IMG/VR virus record: IMGVR_UViG_3300008266_009503
Location: 1-64,000 of that record
Direction: 5' to 3' (one strand)
Length of the DNA: 64,000 nucleotides
From: a virus
Below, piece after piece: positions 20,537 through 43,626 of this stretch. Position numbers and translations under genes: made by a program. Positions within the stretch are counted from its first letter, which is position 1; each line of letters begins with the position of its first letter. The notes under the pieces were generated by a model. That model ran no database searches. It was not told where the DNA came from and saw only the letters and a list, made by a program, of their open reading frames with translations.

Positions 20537-20537
20537 A

Positions 20538-21848: not shown

Positions 21849-21871
21849 ATTATAAATGTAGTTAAGATTAA

Positions 21872-25353: not shown

Positions 25354-25374
25354 ATGGATTTCTATTAACGTATG

Positions 25375-25456
25375 TGCCCTGAGTCGGACTCGAACCGACA
25401 TGCCTTGCGGCGCTAGATCCTAAGTCTAGTCTGTCTACCAATTTCAGCATCGGGGC
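25375..25456 (-). tRNA. tRNA-Leu (anticodon UAG)
   Basis: The acceptor stem GCCCCGA/TCAGGGC has one C-A mismatch and the discriminator base is A. The anticodon arm CTAGA-CTTAGGA-TCTAG gives anticodon UAG with U33 and G37. A long variable arm (GCGCCGCAAGGCAT) and T-arm GTCGG-TTCGAGT-CCGAC complete a class II tRNA of 82 nt. It reads CUN leucine codons. CCA is not encoded (ACATA follows). Confidence 0.85.
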
Positions 25457-26979: not shown

Positions 26980-26993
26980 AATTTAAACTTTAG

Positions 26994-27079
26994 TACCGGG
27001 AGCGGGACTCGAACCCGCACGGGCTTTTTCTGCCCAAAGGATTTTAAGTCCTCCTCGGCTACCTTTACGACACCCCGGC
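26994..27079 (-). tRNA. tRNA-Leu (anticodon UAA)
   Basis: Acceptor GCCGGGG/TCCCGGT has two G-U pairs; discriminator A. The anticodon arm GAGGA-CTTAAAA-TCCTT gives UAA with U33 and A37. A 17-base variable arm (TGGGCAGAAAAAGCCCG) and T-arm GCGGG-TTCGAGT-CCCGC complete a clean 86-nt class II tRNA. It reads UUA/UUG leucine codons, which are common in this AT-rich genome. Confidence 0.9.
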
Positions 27080-27094
27080 ATTGATTATAAAATG

Positions 27095-28434: not shown

Positions 28435-29172
28435 TTATAAAATGTTTATTTCTCTATTACTCCAATCAGCTTCTACTTCCCAGGGTTTATTAGACGGATA
28501 GTAAAACTCATCACAAGTACTAGCATTGAAGTAATGTGTATCCACATCATAGTCGTACCCGTAACTCTCATGTATATGTCCACTTATGTGTATAAGAGGT
28601 TTTACCTTCTGTACAGCAGTCCGTAACTGATCACATCCCACATACTCTTGTGTCCCTGGAATATAATCTAACTTATAAGAAACTGGTCCGTGTGTAACTA
28701 CTACATCTGTTTCTTGCGGTATTTGATCCCACACTTCCCAAATCTCAGCTCCTCTATGCTTATTAAAAGCCCACCTGTCTCCGTGAAACCAAGGAGTAAT
28801 TGGAGACCCCCAGATATTAACTCCCCCTATGTTTACCGAACTATTTTCTAAGTAAGCTACGTTTGAAGGTAAGCCGAGCAACTCTTTTTGAAGCCAAACC
28901 GGCTTTACACCTTCCGTATCATCTTCGTAACGGTTAAACTTAGGATCAAAAGAACGGTCATGGTTTCCAGCTACGAAGACAATACCGTAAGTATAGTTAC
29001 TCGCAAACTTAGTACACCACTCCAAAAAGCTTTCTACTTCGTCTTTTCCTCCAACTCCGGAAAAATCTCCTGCATGGATAAGCAAATCTCCAGGGGGAAG
29101 AAAATAGTTTGTTCCTTTAGAAGTTAAGTGTTTATGCCTGTTATGTGTATCACTAATTAAAACTAATTTCAT
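28435..29172 (-). CDS. Calcineurin-like metallophosphoesterase
   Basis: The dinuclear-metal motifs are in order: DTHNRH (D-x-H), HAGDFSGVGG (GD), VAGNHDRSF (GNHD), VVTHGPVS (H) and HISGHIHES (GH-x-H). The 245-residue, single-domain form resembles phage and bacterial enzymes that hydrolyse phosphodiesters such as cyclic nucleotides or RNA 2',3' phosphates. It may act on a host signal or nucleotide second messenger. Substrate unknown. Confidence 0.85.
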   Translation of the reverse strand: MKLVLISDTHNRHKHLTSKGTNYFLPPGDLLIHAGDFSGVGGKDEVESFLEWCTKFASNYTYGIVFVAGNHDRSFDPKFNRYEDDTEGVKPVWLQKELLGLPSNVAYLENSSVNIGGVNIWGSPITPWFHGDRWAFNKHRGAEIWEVWDQIPQETDVVVTHGPVSYKLDYIPGTQEYVGCDQLRTAVQKVKPLIHISGHIHESYGYDYDVDTHYFNASTCDEFYYPSNKPWEVEADWSNREINIL

Positions 29173-29235
29173 CTCCTAAATATATGGATTCTTTACTGAA
29201 ATGCCTAATATAAATAGAACTTTGAGAGAAACTAA

Positions 29236-30900
29236 TTAGAAATTACCCATATTCATCTCTTCTTCCTTCTTTTTATCGTCTTTTTTCTCAAAAATAACTG
29301 ATTCAGTAGTAAGAATTGTTCCGGCAACAGAAGCTGCATTTTCGATAGCAGTACGTGTTACTTTAGCTGGATCGAGAAGACCTGATTCTTGGGCTGTAAC
29401 TACGTTTTGAGTCTTAGCATTATAGGTAAACAGCATATCTTCACCGCCATTACCTACTAAGTCCATCCTAGCATCAGCAACTTCTCTGAGAATAGAGTAG
29501 TAATCTTCTATTCCGCAGTTACTGAGAATTGTTTTAAATGGCTGAAAGCATGCTTTACGTACTATATCAAAGCCAAGCATTTCATCTGCAGAGACTTCTT
29601 TTGGTTTAATTGAAAGACCGTTAAATGCTTCGATAAGAGCAATGCCTCCTCCGGGTACTACCCCTTCTACGAGTGCTGCTTTAGTAGCAAATAAAGCATC
29701 TTCTACTCTATCTCTTTTCTCTTTAATTTCGATATCAGAGTTACCGCCTACTGAAATAATAGCTACACCGCCTACCAGTTTTCCAAGCCTTTCTTGAAGC
29801 TTTTCTTTTTCGTAGAAAGAAGTAGCTTTTTCAACCTGATCTTTAATCTCTTCTGCTCTTGCACCAATCGCTTCTACAGTTCCTTGTCCGTCTACTACTG
29901 TAGTGTTTTCTTTAGATACGTTAACTATCCTAGCTTTTCCAAACATTTCTACAAGCTGTATAGGAGTAAGTTTGTCGAGTTTATGTCCTTTGTTCTTAGA
30001 AATAACTTGGCCTCCTGTTAGGATAGCTAGATCTTCTAGAATCAATGTACGCCTTTCTCCAAAATCGGGAGCTTTTACTGCTACTACACTTACAACTCCT
30101 CTCATTTTATTTACGATCAAAGTAGCCAACGCCTCATCTTCAATATCTTCTGCTACAACAAGGATAGATTTACTATCAGAATTAGCTTTACTCAAAGCAT
30201 TGAGAAGTTCTGCAGCTTTTGTAATACGTCCGTCGTAGATCATAATATACGGCTCATTTAGTACAGCCTGCATACTTGTATTATTCGTAACAAAGTACGG
30301 AGATTTATAACCTCTATCAAATTGCATACCTTCTACGATCTCAAGACTTGTCTCTCCTGTTTTAGATTCTTCGATAGTAACAATACCTTCACGGCCTACT
30401 TTCTCAATCGCCGTAGAAATTAACTCACCTACCTCGGTGTCATTATTAGCTGAAATAGTAGCTACTTGCTTAATTTGATCTTGAGAGGCAATATCCTTAG
30501 CAATCTCTTTAAGCCTGCTAACAACCTGTCCTACATACTTATCAATACCTTTTTTTACTTCTACGGGATTAGAACCTTGGTTAATCAACTTCAGACCCTC
30601 TTCTACCATAGTAGTAGCAAGTAGAGTGGAAGTTGTAGTACCATCGCCTGCTTCGTTAGCAGACTTAATGGATACCTGTTTTACAAGCTGTGCACCGAGA
30701 TCTTCTACTTGATCTTCTAATTCATGAAAAGAACGAGCAACTGTAACACCATCCTTAGTTACTTTAACCTCTCCTGATTGTTCTTTAATTAAGACTGTTC
30801 TACCTCCAGGGCCTAGTGTGGAAGAAACTGATTGATTTAGTTTCTTAATACCTGCTAGTAGTTTGTTCTTTAATTCTGTTCCGAAAACTGTTGTTGTCAT
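29236..30900 (-). CDS. groEL: GroEL-type chaperonin
   Basis: The 554 residues align throughout with group I chaperonin: [10 protein letters not shown], the ATP loop [25 protein letters not shown], the apical [20 protein letters not shown], and [12 protein letters not shown] near the end. It ends in an acidic, Lys-rich tail with MNMGNF in place of GGM repeats. It folds nascent phage proteins in a 14-mer cage with GroES. Its partner lies two bases upstream, so both are made from one mRNA. Confidence 0.95.
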
Positions 30901-30901
30901 A

Positions 30902-31192
30902 TTAAGCTATTTTTGAGTAAATGTCTTGTTCTTTGCAAATAAAATATTCGTCACCTTCTACTGTAATTCTTACAGAACCTAACTTTGGAATAAGGACTTT
31001 ATCTCCAACGGAGAGTTGAGAAGGTACAAACTTATCTGAGTTGTAGTTATAAGTTTCTGAAATAGAAACTACTTCTCCCATCTCTGGTCTTTCTTTTCCG
31101 AGATCTGGAATAACAATGTTACCGTACATCTGTTCTTCCTCTTCGATCGGTTTAATAACGATGTAACCGTTTAGTGGACTTAAATTACTCAT
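30902..31192 (-). CDS. groES: GroES-type co-chaperonin
   Basis: Its 96 residues match GroES/gp31-like co-chaperonins: NGYIVIKPIEEEE start, a mobile loop region (EEQMYGNIVIPDLG), GEVVSIS strand, and SVGDKVLIPKLGSVRI near the end. It caps the GroEL ring. It precedes groEL by two bases. Phage co-chaperonins may enlarge the cage for big capsid proteins. Confidence 0.9.
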   Translation of the reverse strand: MSNLSPLNGYIVIKPIEEEEQMYGNIVIPDLGKERPEMGEVVSISETYNYNSDKFVPSQLSVGDKVLIPKLGSVRITVEGDEYFICKEQDIYSKIA

Positions 31193-31197
31193 GTTTT

Positions 31198-31386
31198 TTA
31201 TTTAAATTCTTCAATAATTTCTAAATCGGGGATAGTTTCAAGAAAGTATAGTACCCCGTCTTTCTTCAATACGGTATCGGCTCTAAGATATTCTTTCCAA
31301 GCATCTATGTTTGGATTCAAGTCTTCTCTTAGAAGTCTTTTAACTACAAAAATCTTATCTTGAAATTTAAGGAATTCTGATTTCAT
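31198..31386 (-). CDS. Hypothetical 62-residue protein
   Basis: This short charged protein starts MKSEFLKFQDKIFVV and has a DLEIIEEFK C-terminus, with alpha/beta pattern and no known motif. It lies between the groES and hsp20 genes, just after the inverted-repeat arm (31393-31408), so it belongs to the chaperone block. Function unknown. Confidence 0.45.
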   Translation of the reverse strand: MKSEFLKFQDKIFVVKRLLREDLNPNIDAWKEYLRADTVLKKDGVLYFLETIPDLEIIEEFK

Positions 31387-31392
31387 AACCTA

Positions 31393-31918
31393 GTACTTAG
31401 CAGGCCTTTTTTTATTTTTTCTGGGAAAGTGTTTTTAAAGGTTTAATTTCAACCTTACGTATAGCCTTTCCTTCAGCAACTGGAATGCCTAGTACAAGCA
31501 ATCCTTTATCGAGAGAAGCTTCTAGTTTGGAGAGATCAAACTTAGAAGAAATCTTCCAGCTTAAATCAAATCCAGATCTTTTAATTCCTCTGTATATTAT
31601 TGCTTCCTGGTCTATTGGTTTTGTTCTTTCGTATCTAATACGAAGCTGCTCTCCTTCAACGAGAATTTCAATATCTTCTTCGTTAAGACCTACTGCAGCA
31701 ATCTCAAAACGAATACCGTCTTGTGTTTCAAAGATGTCTACGGGGTGTGTAATTTTCTGTGTGATGTCGTAAAATTGCGGAGAAGCATTGAATAAATCTT
31801 TCCACAAAAGATCAAATTGATCCAATTCGAATGGTCTAATGAACGTCATAGTTTCAAGTTTGTGTTCCCTTCCGGTGAACGGTTAATTAATGTTTATAAC
31901 TGAAGGCCTGCTAAGTAC
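31393..31918. repeat. 16-bp perfect inverted repeat flanking the Hsp20 gene
   Basis: GTACTTAGCAGGCCTT at 31393-31408 is the exact reverse complement of AAGGCCTGCTAAGTAC at 31903-31918. The Hsp20 gene (31412-31849) lies exactly between. It could form a long-range RNA stem or mark a mobile cassette. Confidence 0.85.
31412..31849 (-). CDS. Hsp20 family small heat-shock protein
   Basis: The 145 residues carry an alpha-crystallin domain: GIRFEIAAVGLNEEDIEILVEGEQLRIRYE (in part) and the late GLLVLGIPVAE motif with KVEIK. It forms oligomers that hold unfolded proteins. Its position upstream of groES-groEL suggests a chaperone module, but it is bounded by a 16-bp inverted repeat, so it may have arrived separately. 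Confidence 0.85.
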   Translation of the reverse strand: MTFIRPFELDQFDLLWKDLFNASPQFYDITQKITHPVDIFETQDGIRFEIAAVGLNEEDIEILVEGEQLRIRYERTKPIDQEAIIYRGIKRSGFDLSWKISSKFDLSKLEASLDKGLLVLGIPVAEGKAIRKVEIKPLKTLSQKK

Positions 31919-32428: not shown

Positions 32429-34741
32429 CTAATGGCCATCTCTAAAATTTACCGAAACTTCTGGAATTGCAATCAACTCTACTCCGTCCAGTTTAGTTGT
32501 ATTTTCCATACAGTCTTGAACTATCTCACAAGCCCTTGATACATCTTCTTCCCTAACTTGACAGATTAACTGGTCATGTATCTGACAAATAACCTGTCCT
32601 ACAATATTCTCCCTTTGAAATCTCCTGTTTATTTGTAAAGCTGCACGGTTTACTATACTTGCAGAATAACTTTGAATTTGAAAGTTTAAACAGTTATTAA
32701 GTGCATTCTTATAGTCCCGGTATAGACTAGTAACATACTCAATTCCATAGTCTTTTTCGAGTTCTTTTCTAAATCGCCAATCTTCAATAAGCTTATCTCC
32801 TAGTGCAGCATAAATCTCTTTAGCTTGCGGTAGGTGTCTCACACGTCCTACTTTATTTTTAATATAACCTTGCTCCTTTACAAACTTACGAGAATTCTCT
32901 CTCCACTCTCTCAGTTGAGGAAATCCGTCAAGGTAACCTTCTATAAGCCTTTCTCCTTCTTTTCTATCTACGCCCAGTGACATTGCTAGAGCATACCCGG
33001 ACATACCGTACGGCACACCCAGAGAATAAGCTTTTGCTGTCTGTCTTTTAACCGGATCTACTTTTTTAAGGAAGTTAGGAGCTTTTGTGTGGGCACTAAC
33101 TCCTTCTAATTTTTCAGTTTTTATAGCAATGTGAGAATAAAAGTCAAGATCGTTGTTAAAGATATCTTTTAATCCCTGATCACCTGCCACAGTAGCGAAT
33201 ACTCTAGGTTCTAGTGAAGCATAGTCAGTATCTAAAACCTTAGTACCTTCGTCTGCAATAAAGAACGCTCGAACTAGGTTAGTATAGTTCATAATCATTT
33301 CTTCATCCTGTCCTGGTTCAAGAGGTTTAGGTAATTGCTGCATATCCGATCCATAACGTCCCGATACGGTGCCGTTTTGCTTAAAGTACGGGTAAAACTT
33401 ACCATCTTCTGCTGAATCTAAAAATCGATCTACATACGCAGTTTTAATCTTAGTAAGCTTGTTGTATAAACGAAGGTGTTTTGCCCAAGTATATTTGTCT
33501 TTAATAGACTGAATCATATCTTCGTCGAACTGTGCTTTACCTTTAGTAGTTGACGAAATAGGTTTTTCGCCTAGAACATTAAAAGCTATTTTACCCATTT
33601 GATCCTTAGACTGAATATTAAAAAACTGCCCACTATTATCTTCTTTCCAAAGAGAGAGGCTAGTTCTTACTATTTGATCTTTAGTTAGGTAGGTTGTATC
33701 GCCAGTTATTAGAAAATCTTTAAGAGCTGAGTTAGGAAGTCCAGATACAGCTGCTTTGTTAATCGTAAACTTACCTGTTTTTTCTGATTTAGGTAATTCT
33801 ATGTTATTATGCTCAAGCAGTCTTTGTGCAAAAATACCTTTACTCTTAGGAGGGTAAGCTTCTACAGCCTGATCTATAATCCAACCCCTGACTTTAGGCT
33901 CTTTTAATAGTTCTTGAACTACCAAGACAGACTGCTCTTCTAAGTCCTTAGCTATTCTGTCTCTAGTTTCTTGAATTAGAGGGATATCTAACCTTATACC
34001 GTGTTCTTCCATTGGTATAGTAACCTCTCTATAAACAGGCATAACTTCCTCTTCAAAGAAAAACTTATCTAGACCTTCTTTGATTAACACTTCTAAGAAA
34101 TGCTTATAGATACGTAGAGTCAAGTCAGTATCGGCTGCTGCATACTTAGATAAAATCTCTAGGTCTGCTTTGTAAATTTCGTAACTCTCCTTAGAAGTAG
34201 ATCCGCCATTAGCTTTAATACTATCCTTCAATGCTACCTGCTCTTCATTAGCTTCCTTCTCAACATCCAATCCAATTTCTTTCTGTACCATTATAGCAAT
34301 CGGTTTCAAACCAAACGGACTACCGTATCCGAAAGCTCCTTCTTCTTTTACTGTATGTACTAGTAAAGAAGTATCTGCATGAAGAGAAGGAAGCAAATTA
34401 ATCCCATAAAAACACTTTACATACCGTAAGTCGAAAGAGGCGTTATGGCATATAAGTTTTTTATTTATGAGTTGATTAATAACAAACTTAGTTAATTCAT
34501 GCGCTCCTTTACCTTCTATCTGTACTTCCTCTAATCGGTCTACATTCCATATCATAGTAGGCATATAAAAACCTTTACCTACCTCTCCGGAGACAGAAAA
34601 TCCTATAATACGCCCTTTACGCGGGTTCAGACTATCAGTCTCGGTATCGAAAGCTATGTACTCATTTTCCCTAATGTGTTGAATTAGTTCTTTTAAAGTT
34701 TCTTTGCTGTTTACAGTTACATAACTTTTTTGTTGTACCAT
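32429..34741 (-). CDS. polA: Family A DNA polymerase with 3'-5' exonuclease
   Basis: The 770 residues carry a proofreading domain with FDTETDS (residues 31-37; D32, E34), HNASFDLRY (Exo II, about 99-107) and AAADTDL (Exo III, D204). The polymerase domain follows: SGRYGSDMQQLP, motif A TDYASLEPR (D506, E511), motif B RQTAKAYSLGVPYG (K570) and motif C QIHDQLICQ (D723). Residue 574, the equivalent of E. coli 762, is Leu. The usual HDE motif is HDQ. There is no 5'-3' nuclease domain; a FEN-type gene lies separately at 48.3 kb. This is the main replicative polymerase. Confidence 0.92.
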   Translation of the reverse strand: MVQQKSYVTVNSKETLKELIQHIRENEYIAFDTETDSLNPRKGRIIGFSVSGEVGKGFYMPTMIWNVDRLEEVQIEGKGAHELTKFVINQLINKKLICHNASFDLRYVKCFYGINLLPSLHADTSLLVHTVKEEGAFGYGSPFGLKPIAIMVQKEIGLDVEKEANEEQVALKDSIKANGGSTSKESYEIYKADLEILSKYAAADTDLTLRIYKHFLEVLIKEGLDKFFFEEEVMPVYREVTIPMEEHGIRLDIPLIQETRDRIAKDLEEQSVLVVQELLKEPKVRGWIIDQAVEAYPPKSKGIFAQRLLEHNNIELPKSEKTGKFTINKAAVSGLPNSALKDFLITGDTTYLTKDQIVRTSLSLWKEDNSGQFFNIQSKDQMGKIAFNVLGEKPISSTTKGKAQFDEDMIQSIKDKYTWAKHLRLYNKLTKIKTAYVDRFLDSAEDGKFYPYFKQNGTVSGRYGSDMQQLPKPLEPGQDEEMIMNYTNLVRAFFIADEGTKVLDTDYASLEPRVFATVAGDQGLKDIFNNDLDFYSHIAIKTEKLEGVSAHTKAPNFLKKVDPVKRQTAKAYSLGVPYGMSGYALAMSLGVDRKEGERLIEGYLDGFPQLREWRENSRKFVKEQGYIKNKVGRVRHLPQAKEIYAALGDKLIEDWRFRKELEKDYGIEYVTSLYRDYKNALNNCLNFQIQSYSASIVNRAALQINRRFQRENIVGQVICQIHDQLICQVREEDVSRACEIVQDCMENTTKLDGVELIAIPEVSVNFRDGH

Positions 34742-34960: not shown

Positions 34961-35503
34961 TTATAGACTTGAACTTCTCTGCTTATCGTTTTGCCACTGC
35001 CCGTCATAGAGCTCTTCTACAGGACTGCATTCATGAAAATAAATCTGAGCTACTCTAGCATCCTCTTCAATAAAAATAGTTTCAGTAACAAGCATGATAG
35101 TACCCATATTCTCTGTTTCGAATCCTGGATCAAATACTGGAGAGTTAATCAATGTACCGTTACGCCACAGAGATGAACGCTGCTTAATAAAAGCTGTTCT
35201 GTTTGCAGGAATTTTACATCCTTCCCAAAAGGTGATATCGTAAGTTCCTGGATATAGTAACCATCCTTCTACTCCGTCTACTTGTTTAGTATCGACAGCT
35301 GTATAGGTAGTTAATTCAGTTTTGTCTTTTAGTACTTTACCTATTTTATTATCAGAGTAAATACTATTAGCCATACCCTCAACACTAATACCTATTCGCT
35401 GTACTTCTTTAAGTGATAAATCATAACCTACTTGTGCAGGTTTGCCTTTAGAATCCTCTACCTTAAGTAAGTTTTCCTCTAAGATCTGTTTTGAATTTAG
35501 CAT
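34961..35503 (-). CDS. dcd: dCTP deaminase/dUTPase superfamily protein
   Basis: Its 180 residues include AQVGYDLSL, KQRSSLWRNGTLINSPVFDPGF, and a TIMLVTE strand with AQIYF, all matching trimeric dCTP deaminase/dUTPase folds (RSSL motif with active-site Ser and Arg). The glutamate of the usual LEF motif is replaced by Val-Thr, so deaminase activity is uncertain and dUTPase activity is possible. It supplies or protects the dUMP/dTTP pool. Confidence 0.75.
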   Translation of the reverse strand: MLNSKQILEENLLKVEDSKGKPAQVGYDLSLKEVQRIGISVEGMANSIYSDNKIGKVLKDKTELTTYTAVDTKQVDGVEGWLLYPGTYDITFWEGCKIPANRTAFIKQRSSLWRNGTLINSPVFDPGFETENMGTIMLVTETIFIEEDARVAQIYFHECSPVEELYDGQWQNDKQRSSSL

Positions 35504-35706: not shown

Positions 35707-36414
35707 TTACTTTACAGCTAAGTCAATATTCTTATAGAACTCCGCTCTTGCTGAATCTTCTTCTAAGAAACATCCTGATAGCTTTGTGGTTTGCATAGAA
35801 GCACCTTGGTGTTTAATTCCTCTACAACTAACACAGTTATGAGTAGCATTTACCATGACAGCTACACCTAGGTTCCCTTCGCAGATTTTATTTACAGCAT
35901 TGTGTATAGCTACAGTCAACTGTTCTTGAATTGCTCCCCTTCTTCCAAAATGCTCTACAATACGGTTCAGCTTACTCAACCCTACCACTCTTCCGTTCTC
36001 ACTAGGGATATACGCAATCGATACAAGACCAGAAATCGTTTCATGATGGTGACTACAAACACTAGTAACAGGTATATTACTTTCCTGCACTATTCCGGTA
36101 TATCCATCACTAGGAAAACTTGTTATCTCCGCTAGAGGATTAAACCTGCCGGCGAATTTATCATTTACATAAGCTTTAGCTACTCTTCTCGGAGTATTAG
36201 AACTATTAGGATCATTCTCCCAATCCACACCCAATGCAGTTAAGAAGTTACCGTAATGCTTTGCTGCTTCTTCAATAATATAGTACTTATCGCTATCAGT
36301 CAGGGAGTGCTCTCCTCTTAAAATAGCATCTCTTAGGTAAGTACTAATACCATTAGCATGACCTGCTTGCGCTAATTCTAATTCTTCGATGTTTATGTGT
36401 TTGTCTCTATTCAT
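35707..36414 (-). CDS. folE: GTP cyclohydrolase I
   Basis: The 235 residues include NTPRRVAKAY, SVCSHHHETISG (zinc Cys and His, folate-type CEHH motif), GLSKLNRIVEHFGRRGAIQEQLT, and NCVSCRGIKHQGA, all diagnostic of FolE. It makes 7,8-dihydroneopterin triphosphate from GTP, the first step to preQ0. It is the last gene of the 7-deazaguanine block in transcription order. Confidence 0.93.
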   Translation of the reverse strand: MNRDKHINIEELELAQAGHANGISTYLRDAILRGEHSLTDSDKYYIIEEAAKHYGNFLTALGVDWENDPNSSNTPRRVAKAYVNDKFAGRFNPLAEITSFPSDGYTGIVQESNIPVTSVCSHHHETISGLVSIAYIPSENGRVVGLSKLNRIVEHFGRRGAIQEQLTVAIHNAVNKICEGNLGVAVMVNATHNCVSCRGIKHQGASMQTTKLSGCFLEEDSARAEFYKNIDLAVK

Positions 36415-36421
36415 ACGTATT

Positions 36422-36940
36422 TTATAAGTAATTAGAAATTTGATTTAGACGCTGTTCTACCGTTCCTGTTAAAGTTACGATTTTTTCTGCAGGAATATGC
36501 TCCTTAATAAAATCTTGTATAACTCTATCAATCTTAACCTGTAATTCCTGCCAAACACCGCCTGGCCTTTCGTCGTCTATTACGTAGTCAAACTCAATAG
36601 GAATATAGAAAAAGTATTCCACTTGGTGCTTAGTTTGCTGAAATAGCTCTAACATTCCAGTAACATCCACGTCAGGAGCTACAATTTGAGAGTATATAAT
36701 ACAGTCTACAATACTTCGAGTACTTATTACATTCTTATGAGATAAGTAATTTTGATAAGCCCAAGCAGATAATTCGTTAATTACAAACTGCTTTTCGTTA
36801 TTAGTAAACTCTAAGTATTTAGCAATCTTAGTAACAGGCCTTGAGAATCCGTCTGTAACGTAGTAATCAGGAAACCGAGTAGGTACTTCCTTAAGTAAGG
36901 TAGTTTTACCGGTTCCATGCGAACCAATTAGTATTTTCAT
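36422..36940 (-). CDS. P-loop ATPase/kinase (AAA_28/NadR-like)
   Basis: The 172 residues start MKILIGSHGTGKTTLLKEV (Walker A GSHGTGKT). SRSIVDCIIYSQ then provides an acidic strand and YFFYIPIEFDYVIDDERPGG an R-rich lid. It resembles small nucleotide or nucleoside kinases of the NadR ribosylnicotinamide-kinase type. Positioned between folE and the formyltransferase in the modification block, it may phosphorylate a modified nucleotide or intermediate. Substrate is unknown. Confidence 0.65.
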   Translation of the reverse strand: MKILIGSHGTGKTTLLKEVPTRFPDYYVTDGFSRPVTKIAKYLEFTNNEKQFVINELSAWAYQNYLSHKNVISTRSIVDCIIYSQIVAPDVDVTGMLELFQQTKHQVEYFFYIPIEFDYVIDDERPGGVWQELQVKIDRVIQDFIKEHIPAEKIVTLTGTVEQRLNQISNYL

Positions 36941-36968
36941 GAGAATGTTTTAGTAAAAGTAAGTACCT

Positions 36969-37526
36969 TTATTCGAAGTTCCAATTATTTTTGAAAAATC
37001 TTATCCAGGAATCGAGGGAAGTTCCGCGAAGTAGGTTGTACATATCGTCTAAACTCTGTGCAGTATTTGAAATAGCAGCGAATCTCACTACCTCTCCTTC
37101 GTCAACTCCTTCTGTTACTTTGTGTACTACAGATCCGATAGTATCATACTTTCCTTCCCAAGCCCTGATTTGAGGATCTTTTCCTTTTAACTCTGGAAAA
37201 TAAGTAATCAGTCCAGGATGTCCGTTGTAAATCTTGCCAGTTAAGTACTGAAATAACTCTGGAGGTAGTATTCTCAAAAAGCCATGCAACGTAATTAACT
37301 TCTTTTCTAGTAGTTCTGGAATAAGATAATCTTCTAGAGTAGGTCTAAACGGCATCTCTTTTACGGTCACCCCTAATTCTACAAGAGATTTTAAGGTCTC
37401 TAGGGGCATCTTACGTATGTTATTGGTAATAAGAAGACTGGGGAGAAACCCAGTCTCTTTACTTATAGCAATAACTTCTGATCCGGTCTGCGAGATAAGT
37501 ACTCCCCAGTCTTTACATACTTTCAT
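36969..37526 (-). CDS. dpdN: PurN-like formyltransferase, predicted preQ1 formylase (DpdN type)
   Basis: The 185 residues have the formyltransferase core: ALSSL-type start, LITLHGFLRILPPEL, IYNGHPGLITYFPELKG (the N-x-H-P-x-L motif with catalytic Asn and His) and VTEGVDEGEVV (the catalytic Asp loop). It transfers a formyl group from 10-formyl-tetrahydrofolate to an amine. It lies directly beside queF with its start abutting the queF stop. In published phage work a DpdN formyltransferase converts dPreQ1 to 7-(formylamino)methyl-7-deazaguanine, and this gene fits that role. Fold sure, substrate inferred. Confidence 0.75.
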   Translation of the reverse strand: MKVCKDWGVLISQTGSEVIAISKETGFLPSLLITNNIRKMPLETLKSLVELGVTVKEMPFRPTLEDYLIPELLEKKLITLHGFLRILPPELFQYLTGKIYNGHPGLITYFPELKGKDPQIRAWEGKYDTIGSVVHKVTEGVDEGEVVRFAAISNTAQSLDDMYNLLRGTSLDSWIRFFKNNWNFE

Positions 37527-38446
37527 TACTGTCCCATTGCTTTTTTAGTGTAATAGTTTTTAGACCTTAAAGCTACCGGAATAAGTGCTTCTTTACTTGC
37601 ACGTACTGGACAGATATCTAGAGACCCTCTTCGTGCATAAAGTAGCATTACGCAGCAATCCTGTACTAGAGGGTTAGACATAATCTCAGTATAGAGCTTT
37701 TCTGCACAAAACTCATGAAACTCGTTTACTTCCCGTAGGGAGATAACTAACTTCAAAAGTTCTTTTTCTTTAATTGATCCTTCTTTAGTTATAATCTGAA
37801 AATAAGCAGCTCCAGTATCTTTTTGCTTTGTATGCCTGCAGCGAGACCTAAGTATGTTAGTAAAGAAAGAGATATCTTCACTTGCTTCACCGTCTTGTGC
37901 TACAATCTCATACTTCCCTGAAGCGTTGTAGTCGCTTATTTCCATAGAAGCTAATTCTTTATCCGAAATATAACCGTATAGATCAATAAAACCTTCTGTT
38001 GGGTTACCTTCTAGCATTTCATCGTCTCCAGAACCGAAGAAAGCGACTTCTACGGGGGCTCCAATACAGGCGCTAATATCCTTCTTTACTTGGTTTTCAT
38101 AATTAGCAACAGCTTCAGGAATAGTAGCTCCCATCTTACACATGTCAAACGTATTCAAGTAGAGCTTAAAGGATTTAGACTCTACCATAAATTCAGAACT
38201 TGCAGGACATACTATTTTCAATGTACCTGCTAGAGGAAGACCATTGTTAAGCAGGAAAGTAGCTTCGTGGCAATGCCATACATCATATCCTACAAATTCA
38301 TCTCCTTTAATACCCCAATCTTGACGTGCAAGAATACGCGGCATAGGATTAAGTTGTGAAGCATCAAACTGGTCTGTATAGACAGCATACGAGTTGGCCG
38401 AGCCAAGAGATTTAGCGGCGGCATCTGACATGTTATTAATTGACAT
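37526..38446 (-). CDS. queF: NADPH-dependent 7-cyano-7-deazaguanine reductase (bimodular type)
   Basis: The 306 residues match E. coli-type bimodular QueF: VESKSFKLYLNTF (residues about 88-100; the substrate motif E-S-K-x-x-K), ILRSRCRHTKQKDTG with the catalytic Cys203, and LREVNEFHEFCAEKLYTE in the C-terminal half. It reduces preQ0 to preQ1 with two NADPH. It is the first of the two genes that turn preQ0 into a formylated preQ1, with the homing endonuclease upstream. Confidence 0.92.
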   Translation of the reverse strand: MSINNMSDAAAKSLGSANSYAVYTDQFDASQLNPMPRILARQDWGIKGDEFVGYDVWHCHEATFLLNNGLPLAGTLKIVCPASSEFMVESKSFKLYLNTFDMCKMGATIPEAVANYENQVKKDISACIGAPVEVAFFGSGDDEMLEGNPTEGFIDLYGYISDKELASMEISDYNASGKYEIVAQDGEASEDISFFTNILRSRCRHTKQKDTGAAYFQIITKEGSIKEKELLKLVISLREVNEFHEFCAEKLYTEIMSNPLVQDCCVMLLYARRGSLDICPVRASKEALIPVALRSKNYYTKKAMGQ

Positions 38447-38466
38447 AAACTTTGTTTTTTATTAAA

Positions 38467-39129
38467 TTAAGGTATTTTATTTAACTTTCCAACTTTTTTA
38501 TAAGGACCTCTAGGCTTGCTAATCCGTTTTTTTCGAATTACTAACCTCATCTTTTCTTTTGTTTCTTCAGAATGGACGTATTTACCTACGTTACCTTTGT
38601 TATTGCTAGGCTTTCCTTTCTTGCTTTCAGACATCTTTTTTTTAGTTTCGTCCGAGCGTTTTTTATCCCTATTACTCTGCTTTATTTTTTCAATCGTCTC
38701 TCTAGAATGAAATTTACCTAGCATACCTCTAGAAGGATTTTGCTTAGCTATTTCAGATCTTTTAAGCCTTGCTGCTTGAGATAGTGTTCTATCTGATTTA
38801 GAAAAAAGTTCTTTCGCTTCTTCGTATACCCTGTTACCAGCCTTACCTCTCTTCTGGTACTGGTTCCCGCTATTACACATTTTGTAAAAAGTGTAGACTG
38901 CTTTCTTATTTGTAGGGTATATTCGTGCTAGTAGCCAATGACATAAAAAATGCTCTCGAGCAGTTAACAGTACAAGGTTAGGATGCCATTTCCATTGATG
39001 GGCTTTTCCTTCTCCGCCTAAAAACTTAGGACGTATATGGTGAGCTTCGTAGTAAGACCCGTTTCCCCTACTACGGCACTCTTTCTTAGCTTTTTCAATA
39101 ATCTGATCGTAAATTTTTTGATAGTCCAT
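38467..39129 (-). CDS. HNH homing endonuclease with NUMOD3 repeats
   Basis: The 220 residues start with an HNH core: YEAHHIRPKFLGGEG ... HPNLVLLTAREHFLCHWLL. Lys/Ser/Glu-rich DNA-binding repeats of the NUMOD3 type follow (SRETIEKIKQSNRDKK, SDETKKKMSESKKGKP, SEETKEKMRLVIRKK). It is a free-standing homing endonuclease lying between dpdA and queF. Its start is directly preceded by a tightly paired leader (39130-39240) that could limit translation. Confidence 0.85.
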   Translation of the reverse strand: MDYQKIYDQIIEKAKKECRSRGNGSYYEAHHIRPKFLGGEGKAHQWKWHPNLVLLTAREHFLCHWLLARIYPTNKKAVYTFYKMCNSGNQYQKRGKAGNRVYEEAKELFSKSDRTLSQAARLKRSEIAKQNPSRGMLGKFHSRETIEKIKQSNRDKKRSDETKKKMSESKKGKPSNNKGNVGKYVHSEETKEKMRLVIRKKRISKPRGPYKKVGKLNKIP

Positions 39130-39240
39130 ACAGTAAAAAATTGGCTCTTAGTCTAAGAGAGTACGGCAATACTCAATTAAACCTCGAGCCAAAAGTTTAT
39201 AGCTGTTGCCGCAGCTTTTACTGTAATAAATATTTAAAAG
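39130..39240 (-). promoter_or_regulatory. Structured leader of the homing endonuclease gene
   Basis: The 111 bases between dpdA stop and the endonuclease ATG form nested stems: outer ACAGTAAAA/TTTTACTGT (9 bp, the right arm ending at the ATG), then AGCTG-CGGCAA-CAGCT, then TTGGCTC/GAGCCAA enclosing GAGTA-TTGCCG-TACTC. A rival stem CTCTTA-GAC-TAAGAG shares GAG with the third stem, and TTTTTT follows it. It could act as an attenuator or start-site sequester. It matches no riboswitch I know (preQ1-I not seen). Confidence 0.55.
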
Positions 39241-40017
39241 CTACAAATAATTTCTAAAAGTTTTTACGTTTTTAAAAATTAAATCTAACTGCTCTTCTTT
39301 TAACTCGATATCAAGATTATCAGCAAGCTTAGCTTTAGGTTTAGGAGTAGTTAACCCGTGAGGACCTAGTTCACTACCTACCCACCCGTTTACGACAGGG
39401 GAACTTGTATCTAGGGAATATATGAGGTTAGTTATATGCCTCTGATTATACTTATAGAGTATAAATTCGACAGGGTTTTGACATCCTAGTAGGTGGAATT
39501 TAGGCATTTTACCTGAAAACTTAAACCTATTAGCATACCACCAGTTTAGAAACCTAAACCTAACTGTTACGTAATCTGAATCAGGTACTAGATCAAAAGG
39601 TAATGCAATAATATCTACATTTTTTTGCATATACAAATCAATGCAATCAGCAATTTGATCAAAAGTCTCTCCTTGACATACGCCGATATAATTTAACTTA
39701 TCAGACGCAAACTCATCGAGGTATTTTATAGCATTGCTTACGGTCTGATCATGATCGTTTACCTTATCCGGAAGTACGAGGTGAGTAGGCTTGTACGCCT
39801 CTCCTAACTCATATAACTCTTCCATTGGAATAGACTGCCCTAATTCAAAAGCAGAATTGTCTAGGATAGAATAAGGGGCTGTTTGTAACTTCTCTTTATA
39901 AAACTCTGCATACTCCTTATCTTGATTTAGCAAATGACCTAACACGTAAGGGTAATCGCTAATTAAATCGTGGTAAGGAAATAACTGCTTTGGAATTTCG
40001 TGACTAATCTGTATCAT
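39241..40017 (-). CDS. dpdA: DpdA-like DNA 7-deazaguanine transglycosylase
   Basis: The 258 residues show a TIM-barrel-like pattern: YVLGHLLNQDKEY, ILDNSAFELGQS (D53, S55), HLVLPDKVND, YIGVCQGETFDQI and KFHLLGC. The DNSAFE and LPD...D motifs resemble phage DpdA, a relative of tRNA-guanine transglycosylase that exchanges guanine in DNA for a 7-deazaguanine base. It lacks the zinc cysteines of TGT. It lies between queC and queF in the preQ cluster, consistent with inserting preQ0 or preQ1. Confidence 0.82.
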   Translation of the reverse strand: MIQISHEIPKQLFPYHDLISDYPYVLGHLLNQDKEYAEFYKEKLQTAPYSILDNSAFELGQSIPMEELYELGEAYKPTHLVLPDKVNDHDQTVSNAIKYLDEFASDKLNYIGVCQGETFDQIADCIDLYMQKNVDIIALPFDLVPDSDYVTVRFRFLNWWYANRFKFSGKMPKFHLLGCQNPVEFILYKYNQRHITNLIYSLDTSSPVVNGWVGSELGPHGLTTPKPKAKLADNLDIELKEEQLDLIFKNVKTFRNYL

Positions 40018-40020
40018 CTT

Positions 40021-40878
40021 TTATTTATTATGTTCTGCTAATACATTTTCAACGTGTGCTCTAGCTACTTCCCAGCTAACAGGACCTCTTTCATCAGCAT
40101 AATCTACAGGATCAGGACGTCCTAGTTTAATAAATGCTTCAATACGCTCTACTGATGCTGCTGATTTATAGTCGCTAAACCAGTACCCTTCTTTCGATTC
40201 ATACAGAACTATGTCTCCATCTAATGTCTGAGCTTTAGGAATCCAAATAGGTTTATAGCTTGTATTGGTTCTTTTGTATACTTCATCAAAGTTAATACCA
40301 AGCTTCTCACAACACTCGAGACCGTCTTTTAAAATATCGAACTTATTAACTTCCAAATAAGGCGTGTAATAAGAAACGCGATCAGCATGCCAGTTACCAA
40401 CCCTAAAAGCGGTATCATCTGCATCACGGAATTCTTGACGGCAGTCCGGGTAGATAGCATGATCGCCTGCATGAATACCCATAGCGATTTTAACTTCTGT
40501 TTCATTTTTAGTGGCAATTGATAAAGCTACCGCCTGAATAAGCGAGCTAAAAATTTTATTACGGTTAGGTACTACAGTATCTTTCATATTATCCTGTTCG
40601 TAGTGTCCTTCGGGTATATCCCATCCGCCTTCTACAAGGGCTGAATTGAGTAGTTGAGTAATACCGTCAATCTTAATTACCTGGTGTCTCACATAAGGAG
40701 TAGTACAGTCTGAATTAAGATACTCGATCAGAGATTTAGCTCTTTCAAGCTCTACTCTATGTTTTTGTCCGTAGTCAAAGCTAAGAGCTGTTACTTCATA
40801 ACCGTTTGCAAGAAGGTGAAGAAGGAGAGAACTTGAGTCCATTCCACCTGACAGTGATAATACTGCTTGTTTTTTCAT
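40021..40878 (-). CDS. queC: 7-cyano-7-deazaguanine synthase, zinc cysteines lost
   Basis: The 285 residues have the PP-loop LSLSGGMDSSSLLLHL, SFDYGQKHRVEL, VVPNRNKIFSSLIQAVALSIA and MGIHAGDHAIYPDCRQEF, all typical of QueC. The enzyme makes preQ0 from carboxy-deazaguanine, ammonia and ATP. The C-terminal zinc motif (usually CY...CG.C.SC) is replaced by TSYKPIW and FSDYKSAASVERIEAF, with no cysteines. The rest (KLGRPDPVDYAD) is conserved. It sits four bases from dpdA. Confidence 0.9.
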   Translation of the reverse strand: MKKQAVLSLSGGMDSSSLLLHLLANGYEVTALSFDYGQKHRVELERAKSLIEYLNSDCTTPYVRHQVIKIDGITQLLNSALVEGGWDIPEGHYEQDNMKDTVVPNRNKIFSSLIQAVALSIATKNETEVKIAMGIHAGDHAIYPDCRQEFRDADDTAFRVGNWHADRVSYYTPYLEVNKFDILKDGLECCEKLGINFDEVYKRTNTSYKPIWIPKAQTLDGDIVLYESKEGYWFSDYKSAASVERIEAFIKLGRPDPVDYADERGPVSWEVARAHVENVLAEHNK

Positions 40879-40930
40879 TGTTAAAATAATTAAAATATAG
40901 AGCGTATTATTTTATGAATCGATTAGCTCT

Positions 40931-41143
40931 TTAACCGATTTTTTTATCTTCTTTCTTACTAATCTCCTGCTGCATAGATATTATTTGTGCAGCTAGACTA
41001 GCAGCTAAAGTTCCGAGCTGGGTCCAGAGATGGTCGCATTCTTTTTGAAACTTAAAAATTACTCTCCACTGCCAAACTTGTATAGCCATTAGGATTAAAA
41101 TAATAGCTACATAAACGTGTTCAGAACCTATTGTAAATGTCAT
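40931..41143 (-). CDS. Small membrane-anchored coiled-coil protein
   Basis: The 70 residues have one hydrophobic segment (VYVAIILILMAIQVW) followed by a charged helical tail (WTQLGTLAASLAAQIISMQQEISKKEDKK). A promoter-like TTG-N20-TATCTTTAT site ends three bases before the ATG, implying a nearly leaderless transcript. Function unknown; lies within the deazaguanine block. Confidence 0.55.
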   Translation of the reverse strand: MTFTIGSEHVYVAIILILMAIQVWQWRVIFKFQKECDHLWTQLGTLAASLAAQIISMQQEISKKEDKKIG

Positions 41144-41146
41144 ACT

Positions 41147-41178
41147 ATAAAGATACTACTTCTCTTCTGAATTAGCAA
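41147..41178 (-). promoter_or_regulatory. Promoter-like site TTG-N20-TATCTTTAT
   Basis: The -7-like TATCTTTAT (41147-41155) and TTG (41176-41178) are spaced 20 bases, on the minus strand. It lies immediately before the 70-residue membrane gene and upstream of queC and dpdA. Confidence 0.5.
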
Positions 41179-41410
41179 CTGTCTCTCTCATAAAGTTATA
41201 AGCTTCTGGAGTTCCTGGAAAAGCTATAAAATTAGGTTCATTCATAGCTCTTTGTAGAATCTTAATAGTCAAATCTCTATTACGGGCATCTATCATAAGA
41301 GGTTCAAAAACAAATTCAGTATTAGAACCTTTCTTACGAACTAAGTAGTAGAGGCTTCCTGCGCCTACATGCTTAATTGCTTCGTAAAAACTTTCAGCTG
41401 TTGTTTGCAT
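41156..41410 (-). CDS. Hypothetical 84-residue protein
   Basis: The 84 residues show a plausible alpha/beta fold (LYYLVRKKGSNTEFVFEPLMI, LTIKILQRAMNEPNFIAF) with no known motif. It overlaps the upstream zinc-binding gene by 17 bases. Its presence within the deazaguanine gene block suggests a shared transcript. Function unknown. Confidence 0.45.
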   Translation of the reverse strand: MQTTAESFYEAIKHVGAGSLYYLVRKKGSNTEFVFEPLMIDARNRDLTIKILQRAMNEPNFIAFPGTPEAYNFMRETVANSEEK

Positions 41411-41636
41411 AATATAGGTGTCTTACTTTTTTTCCTAGTTCTTGATCGTTAGGTGTATCGTGAATTATCTTCTTTGGAATGAAGAAATGTGTCTTTTCTT
41501 CTGGGTTATCGTAGCAAAGTCTGCAGAGTTGACCCATTCCTTTAATGTAGCCGTATCTAAAATCAATGTGAGTATCGACAGTGTATGGAGTTTCACCTCC
41601 ACATATTATACAATTTTCTGTTTGTGGCATATTCAT
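41394..41636 (-). CDS. Small zinc-binding protein, 80 residues
   Basis: Two CxxC knuckles (CIICGGETPY and LCRLCYDN) are 26 residues apart, so a treble-clef zinc finger is likely. The ATG overlaps the stop of a 35-residue upstream frame (ATGA). Similar mini-proteins are found in phage metabolic operons without known role. Confidence 0.5.
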   Translation of the reverse strand: MNMPQTENCIICGGETPYTVDTHIDFRYGYIKGMGQLCRLCYDNPEEKTHFFIPKKIIHDTPNDQELGKKVRHLYYANNS

Positions 41637-41740
41637 TGGTTTTTATCTTGTTTATCTGCATACCACATGGCTAACTTCAACATACCTAGCGGTACTGCAA
41701 AGGTTACTACTACTCCTAATATTAGATAAGGAACATTCAC
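41633..41740 (-). CDS. Putative 35-residue membrane peptide, GTG start
   Basis: The frame starts at GTG, overlapping the queE stop (TAGTG), and ends at TGA overlapping the next ATG (ATGA). It encodes MNVPYLILGVVVTFAVPLG and a KQDKNQ tail, a single membrane span. Coupling at both ends supports translation, but the size leaves doubt. Confidence 0.4.
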   Translation of the reverse strand: MNVPYLILGVVVTFAVPLGMLKLAMWYADKQDKNQ

Positions 41741-42576
41741 TATACATTCAATGTTTTATTCCAAGCAGCAATATGTAATCTAGTCAATCCACGGAATTTA
41801 TATTTCTTAGCCATTTCAAGAACGAACTGTGTACGCTCTTCAAAGTTAGCTACATCATCCAAACCAGGCATGCAAACTACATTTTTAAGAGGTATGCTAA
41901 ATGGTACGACAAAGTCCCTAAAAAGTTCCAATACATCTTCTTCATTGCTGATTACGAATTTAAATTGATAATTTTTATGTTCCATTACTCGCCTAATAGC
42001 GGCTTCGTTGATACGTTGTTTAGCTTCTAGTCCTGAATTGGATAGCTTGGGTGAGCAGTTAATTTGATCAAGCATAGTGAATAGCTTGTCTTCAATTTTA
42101 ACTGTACCGTTTGTTTCAATTTCATAGAACGGACTAACAGTATTATCAAGATGTTTACCTAACCAGTAGTTAGTGAAGTTAACAATTGCTTGCTGATGAC
42201 CTTTAATTGTTGGTTCTCCACCCGTCCAAATAATATGAATTACACCGTTTAGAATATCATCGTAAATACCTTCATCTTTCCAGCGTTTAATTAGATAGTC
42301 AAATTCTTTATCTTCGCCTCTCCACAACCATTGGCTTGTAGAATCACAAGTCCAAGTTGCTTTACCTTCAGCCTGTAAATCACCGACGAATATTTCACCG
42401 TCTTCAAGCTTTTGTTCTTTAGCAAGTTGGTTAGCAAACTGACGAGACATTCCGCAAGTTAAGTTACAGATACCTAGACGAACAAAGTAAGAAGGTACTC
42501 CAGAGGAGATTCCCTCTCCTTGTACAGAATAAAAGTCTGAACTAATTAAAAGTTTACTTGAATCTATTTTACTCAT
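41740..42576 (-). CDS. queE: 7-carboxy-7-deazaguanine synthase (radical SAM), expanded cluster loop
   Basis: The 278 residues show SDFYSVQGEG, the Cys cluster in RLGICNLTC, the substrate region IIWTGGEPTIKGHQ and SPKLSNSG, matching QueE. The iron-sulfur motif is stretched: CNLTC is followed by about 35 residues before TWTCDST, giving CX3CX35C where short forms have CX3CX2C. It makes 7-carboxy-7-deazaguanine from carboxy-tetrahydropterin. It sits between queD upstream and queC downstream in the pathway block. Confidence 0.9.
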   Translation of the reverse strand: MSKIDSSKLLISSDFYSVQGEGISSGVPSYFVRLGICNLTCGMSRQFANQLAKEQKLEDGEIFVGDLQAEGKATWTCDSTSQWLWRGEDKEFDYLIKRWKDEGIYDDILNGVIHIIWTGGEPTIKGHQQAIVNFTNYWLGKHLDNTVSPFYEIETNGTVKIEDKLFTMLDQINCSPKLSNSGLEAKQRINEAAIRRVMEHKNYQFKFVISNEEDVLELFRDFVVPFSIPLKNVVCMPGLDDVANFEERTQFVLEMAKKYKFRGLTRLHIAAWNKTLNV

Positions 42577-42768
42577 TTATAAAAATTTTTCTTTTTTAAG
42601 TTTATTATAAGTTGCGTTAGCTATAGCCAAAGTCCATAACACAAAGCATAGCCTTCCAATCCATCCCCAACTAACAATACTAGACTCCCATGTTATAAGA
42701 GCTATGCAAATATAAGGTACAACTATAGCACCAACGGCTATTAGACAATAGACTAAGAACTTTCTCAT
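42577..42768 (-). CDS. Small membrane protein, 63 residues
   Basis: It has two hydrophobic segments (FLVYCLIAVGAIVVPYICIALI and WIGRLCFVLWTLAIANA) with a positive tail. The ATG overlaps the stop of the upstream 41-residue frame (ATGA). It ends directly before the queE start. No function is recognised. Confidence 0.55.
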   Translation of the reverse strand: MRKFLVYCLIAVGAIVVPYICIALITWESSIVSWGWIGRLCFVLWTLAIANATYNKLKKEKFL

Positions 42769-42890
42769 CTGAATAATGTTTTTATATAGGTGAATATAGG
42801 ATTTAATTGGGGTGTTTCCAACAAAAAAGCAGCAAGTGAGGGATGACTATCTCCACAAAAGCCTAGTGTGTGACTAATTACTTCTACCAT
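42765..42890 (-). CDS. Putative 41-residue peptide
   Basis: A frame from ATG 42890 encodes MVEVISHTLGFCGDSHPSLAAFL and ends in TGA overlapping the next ATG. The LGFCGDSHPSL motif looks familiar from short phage peptides. Short length and lack of other frames make it likely but not certain. Confidence 0.45.
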   Translation of the reverse strand: MVEVISHTLGFCGDSHPSLAAFLLETPQLNPIFTYIKTLFR

Positions 42891-42893
42891 AGT

Positions 42894-43172
42894 TTATTTA
42901 TAATGTTGTAACTTAGCTCTATACTTATCAATCTGAATTTGACAATACCATTTACCTAACCAGCTACTAGCTTCAGCGTACTTTTTTTCCCACTTTTCTA
43001 TATTCCTGAATACAGGTCTATTTGCTTTATTAATAATGTCTATATCGTAGTAGCTATCATTTTCTAACATACTCTCTTCCCAATGCCCTTCTGTATAGGG
43101 AGGAGGAGCTTGTTCAGCCTTTTCAATAAATTCTTTTTTCTTACTGTTCTTGGTAGATTTTTTATTCTGCAT
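42894..43172 (-). CDS. Hypothetical 92-residue basic protein
   Basis: The start at 43172 (MQNKKSTKNSKKKEF) lies within the queD end, overlapping by 11 bases. The longer frame would overlap queD by far more. The product is rich in Lys and Glu with a Trp/Tyr-rich C-terminal half (WLGKWYCQIQIDKYRAKL). Function unknown. Confidence 0.5.
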   Translation of the reverse strand: MQNKKSTKNSKKKEFIEKAEQAPPPYTEGHWEESMLENDSYYDIDIINKANRPVFRNIEKWEKKYAEASSWLGKWYCQIQIDKYRAKLQHYK

Positions 43173-43626
43173 ATATGGCGGTATTTTTACTGTGTTCCAT
43201 AAATTCAACCTTTGCAGCCCGTACTCTACCCTCGGTCTCTACCTGTACAAAAGTATTAATTTTCTCAAAAATAAATTTTGCAAATTGCTCCGCTCCGACG
43301 CCAGGAATAACTCTTAATTGAATAATACCTTGCTCATGCATTTTTTGAAATTCTGACAAGAAAGGATCGTCTTCGGCTACAAGGGTTGTATGGTCGAACA
43401 TATAATCCATCCACGCTTTAGGATTCATTCCGTCGATAGTACCTTGAGCACGTTTCATACCTCCGAAATCCCAAACCCAATTACGGTGATCTAAATCACC
43501 CTGAAACCATACTCTAAAGGATATTCCATATCCATGCATGAACCTGCAGTGGGTACCTGCTGCTTTCCATTGACGGAATACACAACTATAACCGTCAAAA
43601 ACTTTTGTTGATTGAAACTTAGGCAT
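43162..43626 (-). CDS. queD: 6-carboxy-tetrahydropterin synthase, CxxxHGY variant
   Basis: The 154 residues align with QueD/PTPS: FRQWKAAGTHCRFMHGYGI, NWVWDFGGMKRA, FDHTTLVAEDDP, and AAKVEFMEHSKNTAIY. It converts dihydroneopterin triphosphate to carboxy-tetrahydropterin. The zinc motif C-x3-H-G-H-x has Tyr in place of the second His, a form I recall in phage and alphaproteobacterial relatives. It is the first enzyme of the deazaguanine block in transcription order. Confidence 0.85.
   Translation of the reverse strand: MPKFQSTKVFDGYSCVFRQWKAAGTHCRFMHGYGISFRVWFQGDLDHRNWVWDFGGMKRAQGTIDGMNPKAWMDYMFDHTTLVAEDDPFLSEFQKMHEQGIIQLRVIPGVGAEQFAKFIFEKINTFVQVETEGRVRAAKVEFMEHSKNTAIYAE

Follow-up and report, generated by a model that had tools for sequence, protein, structure and literature searches.

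What base would take the place of guanine in a phage that encodes 7-deazaguanine enzymes beside a formyltransferase and a putative nucleotide kinase, and would the exchange occur in DNA or on free nucleotides? These questions are raised by a gene block at 35707-43626 of a 64,000-nucleotide stretch (the window) of the IMG/VR record IMGVR_UViG_3300008266_009503, a freshwater-type phage record of 73,670 bases. Phage DNA containing deazaguanine is generally described as being modified after replication. We found that a 172-amino-acid (aa) P-loop protein of the block (Kin) recurs near the same short form of the transglycosylase DpdA. Among distinct DpdA genes in IMG/VR with at least 2.6 kb of downstream sequence (n = 62), Kin was present at 62 of 62 loci, and QueF and a PurN-like formyltransferase (FT) were each present at 61. 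The best joint explanation, held tentatively and at a little under an even chance, is that formylated 7-aminomethyl-7-deazaguanine (preQ1) replaces the phage's guanine and that Kin is a core kinase of the pathway, with exchange at the nucleotide level as the leading reading.

An earlier note, made from the letters of the window, had listed FolE, QueD, QueE, QueC, a DpdA-like protein, QueF and a formyltransferase on one strand. Pfam and PHROG searches, together with AlphaFold2 (AF2) models compared by Foldseek, confirmed each of these genes and its position, and added a homing-endonuclease gene between dpdA and queF that the note had missed. From 43626 down to 35707 the order is as follows, with FT and Kin used as abbreviations for the window genes and their homologues alike.

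43162..43626, minus strand: QueD-like 6-carboxytetrahydropterin synthase (PF01242, 7.9e-14; phrog_2389, 1.3e-39), with zinc motif HGY instead of HGH
41740..42576, minus strand: QueE-like radical SAM 7-carboxy-7-deazaguanine synthase (phrog_2076, 1.4e-38), with C37, C41 and C77 conserved
40021..40878, minus strand: QueC-like 7-cyano-7-deazaguanine (preQ0) synthase (PF06508, 1e-39), with PP-loop SGGMDSS
39241..40017, minus strand: short DpdA, 258 aa, a guanine transglycosylase homologue (DNA or nucleotide; AF2 model and Foldseek)
38467..39129, minus strand: NUMOD3/HNH homing-endonuclease gene (PF07460, 6.4e-9; phrog_655, 1.8e-38)
37526..38446, minus strand: QueF, bimodular preQ0 nitrile reductase (PF14819, QueF_N, 9.9e-25; PF14489, QueF, 8.4e-9)
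36969..37526, minus strand: FT, PurN-like and predicted to be a preQ1 N-formyltransferase (PF00551, 2.1e-11)
36422..36940, minus strand: Kin, P-loop nucleotide kinase-like and predicted to be a 7-deaza-dGMP kinase (PF13521, 4.3e-7)
35707..36414, minus strand: FolE, GTP cyclohydrolase I (PF01227, 1.3e-42), with zinc ligands C120, H123 and C194 conserved

Small open reading frames (ORFs) lie between queD, queE and queC, and the start codon of FT shares one base (37526) with the stop codon of queF. Because the minus strand carries nearly all coding sequence of the window, the shared strand of the block is weak evidence. The HNH gene splits dpdA from queF. Of the 34 relatives arranged in this way, 32 have an empty site where the two genes overlap one another; an HNH insertion at this junction was found only in the window family and in one other locus (L059; loci are cited by our own numbers). 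A GIY-YIG-like homing-endonuclease gene lies between queF and FT in L018, where relatives provide empty sites.

Precursor enzymes and the short transglycosylase

FolE, QueD, QueE and QueC would convert GTP to preQ0, which QueF would reduce to preQ1. The zinc ligands of FolE are kept in its relatives and the three cysteines of QueE in 43 sequences. QueC keeps its PP-loop motif and lacks the usual C-terminal zinc cysteines; motif comparison found the same state in relatives, as it did for the altered zinc motif of QueD. Since a phage locus of the DpdA1 type (L149) shows both departures too, we treat them as a caveat. The earlier description of the pathway as complete thus holds by homology, with a reservation for these two enzymes. 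Both domains of QueF were found by Pfam search, and across 74 relatives C203, D210, H244 and E245 as well as the NADPH motif E89-S90-K91-S92-x-K94 showed conservation of at least 97%. Given the retained NADPH motif and catalytic Cys, Asp, His and Glu, the natural reading is nitrile reduction, and these residues support a predicted preQ1 route via QueF. Similarity alone is ambiguous between phage QueF and the amidine-forming QueF-L (PMC6884629). Overall, homology makes a course from GTP through preQ0 to preQ1, followed by transglycosylation and N-acyl transfer, a well-supported prediction.

The window DpdA had no match in Pfam, matched only a family of unknown function in PHROG, and returned nothing significant in a sequence search against the PDB, so a fold search was needed. 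Its AF2 model (predicted local distance difference test, pLDDT, 92.7) matched tRNA-guanine transglycosylase (TGT) at E 1.8e-8 and 7ui4, a solved structure of bacterial DpdA, at E 9.5e-7 in Foldseek, a structural match that the earlier note had proposed as a check. The model supports a TGT-type barrel fold and assignment as a DpdA-family transglycosylase. Its 258 aa fall short of the 355-373 aa of solved TGTs and the 413 aa of bacterial DpdA. Across 25 aligned sequences D53, D84 and D203 do not vary and Q115 hardly does, their correspondence to TGT residues being drawn by motif rather than from superposed coordinates.

We next considered which published transglycosylases this protein resembles. 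Translated searches (tblastn) aligned it with the DpdA of Campylobacter phages of the CP220 type at ~32% identity over 98-99% of its length (E 2e-20 to 7e-20). We take the CP220 type to be the published 'DpdA3' subfamily, for which complete replacement of guanine is reported. Profile comparison united the DpdAs of the window type, CP220/CC_R7, Bacillus/Weizmannia phages, MA9V-3 and StAshley in one family. In contrast, the systems of DpdA1 (9g, CAjan) and DpdA2 (KVP40, nt-1) share FolE, QueD, QueE, QueC and a transglycosylase with the window but differ in the latter, as homology of short DpdA to phage 9g DpdA1 and KVP40 DpdA2 was not detected by sequence (hhalign E 0.32 and 0.18). The Bacillus-type DpdA alignment, used as a scan query, found no viral contigs.

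Linkage of a kinase gene to short DpdA

Scanning IMG/VR for the DpdA profile and for a QueF yielded well over a hundred loci, some contigs appearing twice. QueF matches in Acinetobacter were rejected as located in host-like DNA. DpdA, QueF, FT and Kin occurred together at 68 distinct loci, with 34 in the window order DpdA-QueF-FT-Kin and 33 in the order DpdA-FT-Kin-QueF. FT and Kin were almost always adjacent (median distance 19 bases). The sole exception in the set of 62 (L070) has QueC, Kin and DpdA in the absence of QueF and FT. All 24 members of the Kin alignment matched PF13521 (AAA_28), and the Kin profile aligned with thymidylate kinase over its full length (2.5e-7). Foldseek matched the AF2 model of Kin to NadR, thymidylate kinase and deoxynucleoside kinase, and by this model Kin has the fold that these proteins share. 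Walker A, DRx and lid Arg motifs are present, with G11, K12, R75, D79 and R164 invariant and R125 nearly so.

Kin was also found apart from FT. It directly follows DpdA in the Campylobacter phages CP220 and CC_R7, with neither FT nor QueF there, and it adjoins DpdA elsewhere in the order DpdA-Kin-QueF without FT (L170) and in the order Kin-DpdA with QueC nearby and neither FT nor QueF (L174). CP220 thus resembles the window in that homologues of short DpdA and Kin adjoin one another, but differs in that QueF and FT are not beside them and an HD-domain/P-loop protein lies upstream; its product is reportedly 2'-deoxy-7-amido-7-deazaguanosine (dADG). Other kinases accompany short DpdA in further phages: a different P-loop kinase overlaps dpdA in all six Bacillus/Weizmannia records carrying short DpdA, an AAA_18-type kinase lies two bases before dpdA in Chryseobacterium MA9V-3, and a T4-type deoxynucleoside monophosphate (dNMP) kinase (PF21448) lies beside folE, ~6 kb from dpdA, in Brevundimonas StAshley.

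As a control, we scanned eight DpdA1 and six DpdA2 loci for P-loop kinase motifs within 5 kb. A verified P-loop nucleotide kinase was found within this distance at 0 of 14 DpdA1/DpdA2 loci versus 8 of 9 short-DpdA loci (Fisher p 1.8e-5), the eight comprising seven from the motif scan plus L066, whose kinase runs off the end of the contig and was read separately, and the ninth being StAshley. Pattern matches in two DpdA2 loci were set aside by inspection, one as an over-extended reading frame (L164) and the other as a cut ATPase/helicase-like ORF (L166). A match of KVP40 to the Kin profile was not counted because the matching frame of 327 aa, at 114 kb, is remote from the dpdA2 operon and is probably NadR-like. 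Homologues of Kin in Streptomyces phages had no 7-deazaguanine genes detected within 12 kb, so the Kin family is not confined to the deazaguanine pathway.

Judged by this distribution of genes, Kin goes with the short-DpdA class as such and not with formylation, and is predicted to be a nucleotide kinase at the core of the pathway that uses short ('DpdA3'-like) DpdA. The earlier note had suggested in passing that the P-loop gene could be an undescribed extra step in the block. Dedicated kinases coupled to a modified-nucleotide pathway are also found in T4, with its gp1 dNMP kinase, and in the 5-hydroxymethyldeoxycytidine (5hmdC), 5-hydroxymethyldeoxyuridine (5hmdU) and 2-aminodeoxyadenosine (dZ) systems; the StAshley kinase itself belongs to the gp1 family. 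In those systems a dNMP-modifying enzyme alters the base, whereas a transglycosylase is proposed to do so here.

The formyltransferase and the acyl slot

The FT profile matched PurN structures (7e-19), and N101, H103 and D142, aligned with the catalytic Asn, His and Asp of PurN, were invariant in 29 relatives, in agreement with the earlier reading of FT as a PurN-like enzyme abutting queF. The SGxGSN loop of PurN binds the phosphate of glycinamide ribonucleotide (GAR). In FT this loop reads SQTGSE, G15 and E17 having at least 90% conservation in the same relatives, and this change speaks against GAR as the substrate. The block yielded no further gene of purine biosynthesis, and in 61 of 62 relatives FT stays together with DpdA, QueF and Kin, a neighbourhood check that likewise came from the earlier note. 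FT would transfer a formyl group from 10-formyl-tetrahydrofolate to the aminomethyl nitrogen, before or after base exchange, to give 7-(formylamino)methyl-7-deazaguanine. Formylated preQ1 in DNA, as first predicted, is reasonable and the best prediction from these genes; the restriction resistance that the earlier note expected of such DNA is likewise a prediction. A formyl-preQ1 pathway has probably already been proposed for such phages, as Cui et al. in 2023 (Nucleic Acids Research, NAR) reportedly described QueF and a formyltransferase of the preQ1 deoxynucleoside (dPreQ1), DpdN, in phages with DpdA, giving formylated dPreQ1 (fdPreQ1). FT may accordingly be a DpdN-like enzyme.

The nearest isolated phage with FT is Flavobacterium phage vB_FspM_immuto_2-6A (MW353175), whose cluster comprises QueD, QueE, a phosphoribosyltransferase, FolE, a MazG-like protein, DpdA, FT, Kin (annotated 'thymidylate kinase') and QueF. 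It shares the window's enzyme set and has FT followed directly by the kinase, with identities of 40% for FT, 37% for QueF, 34% for DpdA and 28% for the kinase. It differs in its order, DpdA-FT-Kin-QueF, and in adding the MazG-like and phosphoribosyltransferase genes; QueC was not found within the 16.5 kb read. The MazG-like pyrophosphohydrolase gene lies directly upstream of dpdA in immuto-type clusters (L001 6332-6856, L169 5143-5802) and recalls the dGTP-handling MazZ of Z-genome phages. Phosphoribosyltransferase genes occur at 9 of the 68 loci; examples in 7-deazaguanine clusters are L001 4893-5288, L159 2303-2776 and L164 1733-2194, of which one is annotated as xanthine-guanine. These enzymes possibly recycle guanine released by base exchange.

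The slot occupied by FT can hold another enzyme. A GNAT acetyltransferase lies between QueF and Kin in L066, where FT is absent, and the start of the same ORF is found at the contig end of L067. L169, an immuto-type cluster missing FT, has a clear GNAT domain (2e-8) in the interval from Kin to QueF. In loci of this kind the GNAT protein would acylate the preQ1 amine instead. That the same swap occurs in two gene orders supports acylation of this amine and predicts N-acetyl-preQ1 in phages of the L066/L169 type. The L169 cluster also encodes, between dpdA and Kin (6980-7978), a protein of 332 aa that matches amidoligase weakly (0.0021). Full-text literature searching found no mention of an N-acetyl-preQ1 base, of fdPreQ1, of a link between DpdA and a kinase, or of a kinase or acetyltransferase variant of the DpdN/fdPreQ1 pathway. 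The kinase linkage and acyl-slot swap therefore appear undescribed in the searchable text, outside of which lie the two most relevant papers, NAR 2023 (DpdN) and Journal of Virology 2019 (Campylobacter).

Proposed nucleotide-level exchange and its alternatives

Short DpdA would swap guanine for a 7-deazaguanine base. In the leading reading it would do so at the nucleotide level, converting dGMP and the base to 7-deaza-dGMP and guanine, after which Kin would carry the modified dNMP toward 7-deaza-dGTP for the phage polymerase. Modified pyrimidines of T4 and SPO1 likewise enter DNA as triphosphates used by the polymerase. Two further genes of the cluster lie downstream of the block.

34961..35503, minus strand: dCTP deaminase/dUTPase-like protein (PF22769, 1.2e-11), directly downstream of FolE and kept in relatives
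32429..34741, minus strand: family A DNA polymerase at the end of the same gene cluster (PF00476, 2.7e-60)

The polymerase would need to use or copy the modified base. Nucleotide-level exchange is supported by the kinase linkage, the short transglycosylase, and the MazG-like and phosphoribosyltransferase genes of relatives. It is also supported by the complete replacement of dG with a 7-deazaguanine in Firehammervirus, the genus of CP220 (PMC10273834), and by a modified-dGTP route proposed earlier for Campylobacter phages (quoted in PMC6884629). We place the nucleotide route at somewhat under even odds. The broader model, in which short DpdA is a nucleotide-level exchanger, a co-inherited kinase leads to 7-deaza-dGTP and the acyl slot may hold FT, GNAT or neither, is a possibility to which we give rather less than an even chance.

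Several observations weigh against nucleotide-level exchange. The chemistry is inferred from gene identities, folds, conserved residues and linkage, and this applies to each step in this phage, to the formylated product and to the route itself. All such insertions are reportedly called post-replicative in the 2023 literature. Kin may be a standard kinase for dTMP/dNMP or for GMP. Because of their common ancestry, the relatives at the 62 loci do not amount to 62 independent events, and lineages are likewise treated as independent in the Fisher test. At two divergent short-DpdA loci (L168, L172) a kinase is absent from the nearest 6 kb, and the StAshley kinase is at a similar remove; another contig of the same assembly as L172 has Kin overlapping queC. 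The control was a motif scan, with the L164 and L166 matches judged by inspection rather than by profile. The record is a 73.7 kb fragment, which limits the scope for recognizing a dGTP-removing enzyme. Finally, DpdA1 enzymes act on DNA in trans and protect plasmids from restriction (PMC6884629).

Such activity on DNA would fit a post-replicative alternative, in which short DpdA exchanges guanine in DNA, FT formylates dPreQ1 there, and Kin is a GMP or dNMP kinase for supply, for example returning released guanine via GMP to GTP for FolE. DpdN is said in the 2023 work to act on dPreQ1 in DNA. DpdA activity has been described on DNA, with plasmids modified in E. coli (PMC6884629), and the phosphoribosyltransferases of several short-DpdA clusters, like a xanthine-guanine one in a DpdA2 cluster, would fit guanine recycling. 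However, Kin is far more constant (62/62) than the phosphoribosyltransferase (9/68), no kinase was verified near DpdA1 or DpdA2, unrelated kinases recur next to short DpdA, and hosts already possess guanylate kinase; we consider this alternative unlikely, though it carries real weight. Kin might instead be a general phage thymidylate or deoxynucleotide kinase, placed by chance in a nucleotide-metabolism operon with ribonucleotide reductase (RNR), dCTP deaminase (DCD) and DNA polymerase. Its fold and profile are indeed closest to thymidylate kinase, DCD and RNR flank the block, and one of the two Kin paralogues of CP220 (CPT_0006, L155 5407-5940) is next to a dUTPase gene. Yet CP220 and CC_R7 each keep two paralogues, the other in CP220 lying beside DpdA; in two gene orders Kin lies directly beside the dpdA/FT/queF genes or among them, frequently with overlap; and DpdA1 and DpdA2 phages are without Kin near dpdA, all of which makes a chance placement improbable.

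Two other explanations concern the product rather than the kinase. FT could be a captured PurN from purine biosynthesis or a sugar-nucleotide formyltransferase, given that PurN is its closest solved relative, that phages can carry purN (phrog_9240 match), and that the window holds a large glycan gene cluster. Its constant place in the block, its changed phosphate loop and the occupation of its slot by GNAT in L066 and L169 make this very unlikely. Alternatively, the pathway might boost queuosine precursors for host tRNA, since preQ1 is the substrate of host TGT and such a role has been proposed for phages without DpdA (PMC6884629). This is scarcely credible here, as the block and its relatives encode a TGT/DpdA-fold protein shorter than tRNA-type TGT, and formylation by FT should keep the preQ1 amine from serving queuosine synthesis.

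Elsewhere in the window, GroEL/GroES, small heat-shock-like genes and a metallophosphatase lie beside replication genes (28435-31849), and GroEL/GroES likewise flank the polymerase in immuto_2-6A. A tmRNA gene (27094-27537; tag ADYALAA) and two tRNA-Leu genes (25374-25456, 26993-27079) were found, together with a long series of putative glycosyltransferase and sugar-nucleotide genes (6428-23323) that includes, by eye, a ketoacyl-ACP-synthase-III-like ORF (12876-13817).

Whether exchange occurs at the nucleotide or the DNA level in Campylobacter phages was left undecided in earlier work (PMC6884629), and the kinase linkage turns that question into simple enzyme tests. A kinase tied to one class of DpdA suggests a second, pre-replicative logic for deazaguanine DNA which, if true, would explain near-total replacement of dG in some phages. 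The linkage thereby points to a suggested source of 7-deaza-dNTPs, and the acyl slot to a predicted further base, N-acetyl-preQ1, in uncultured phages.

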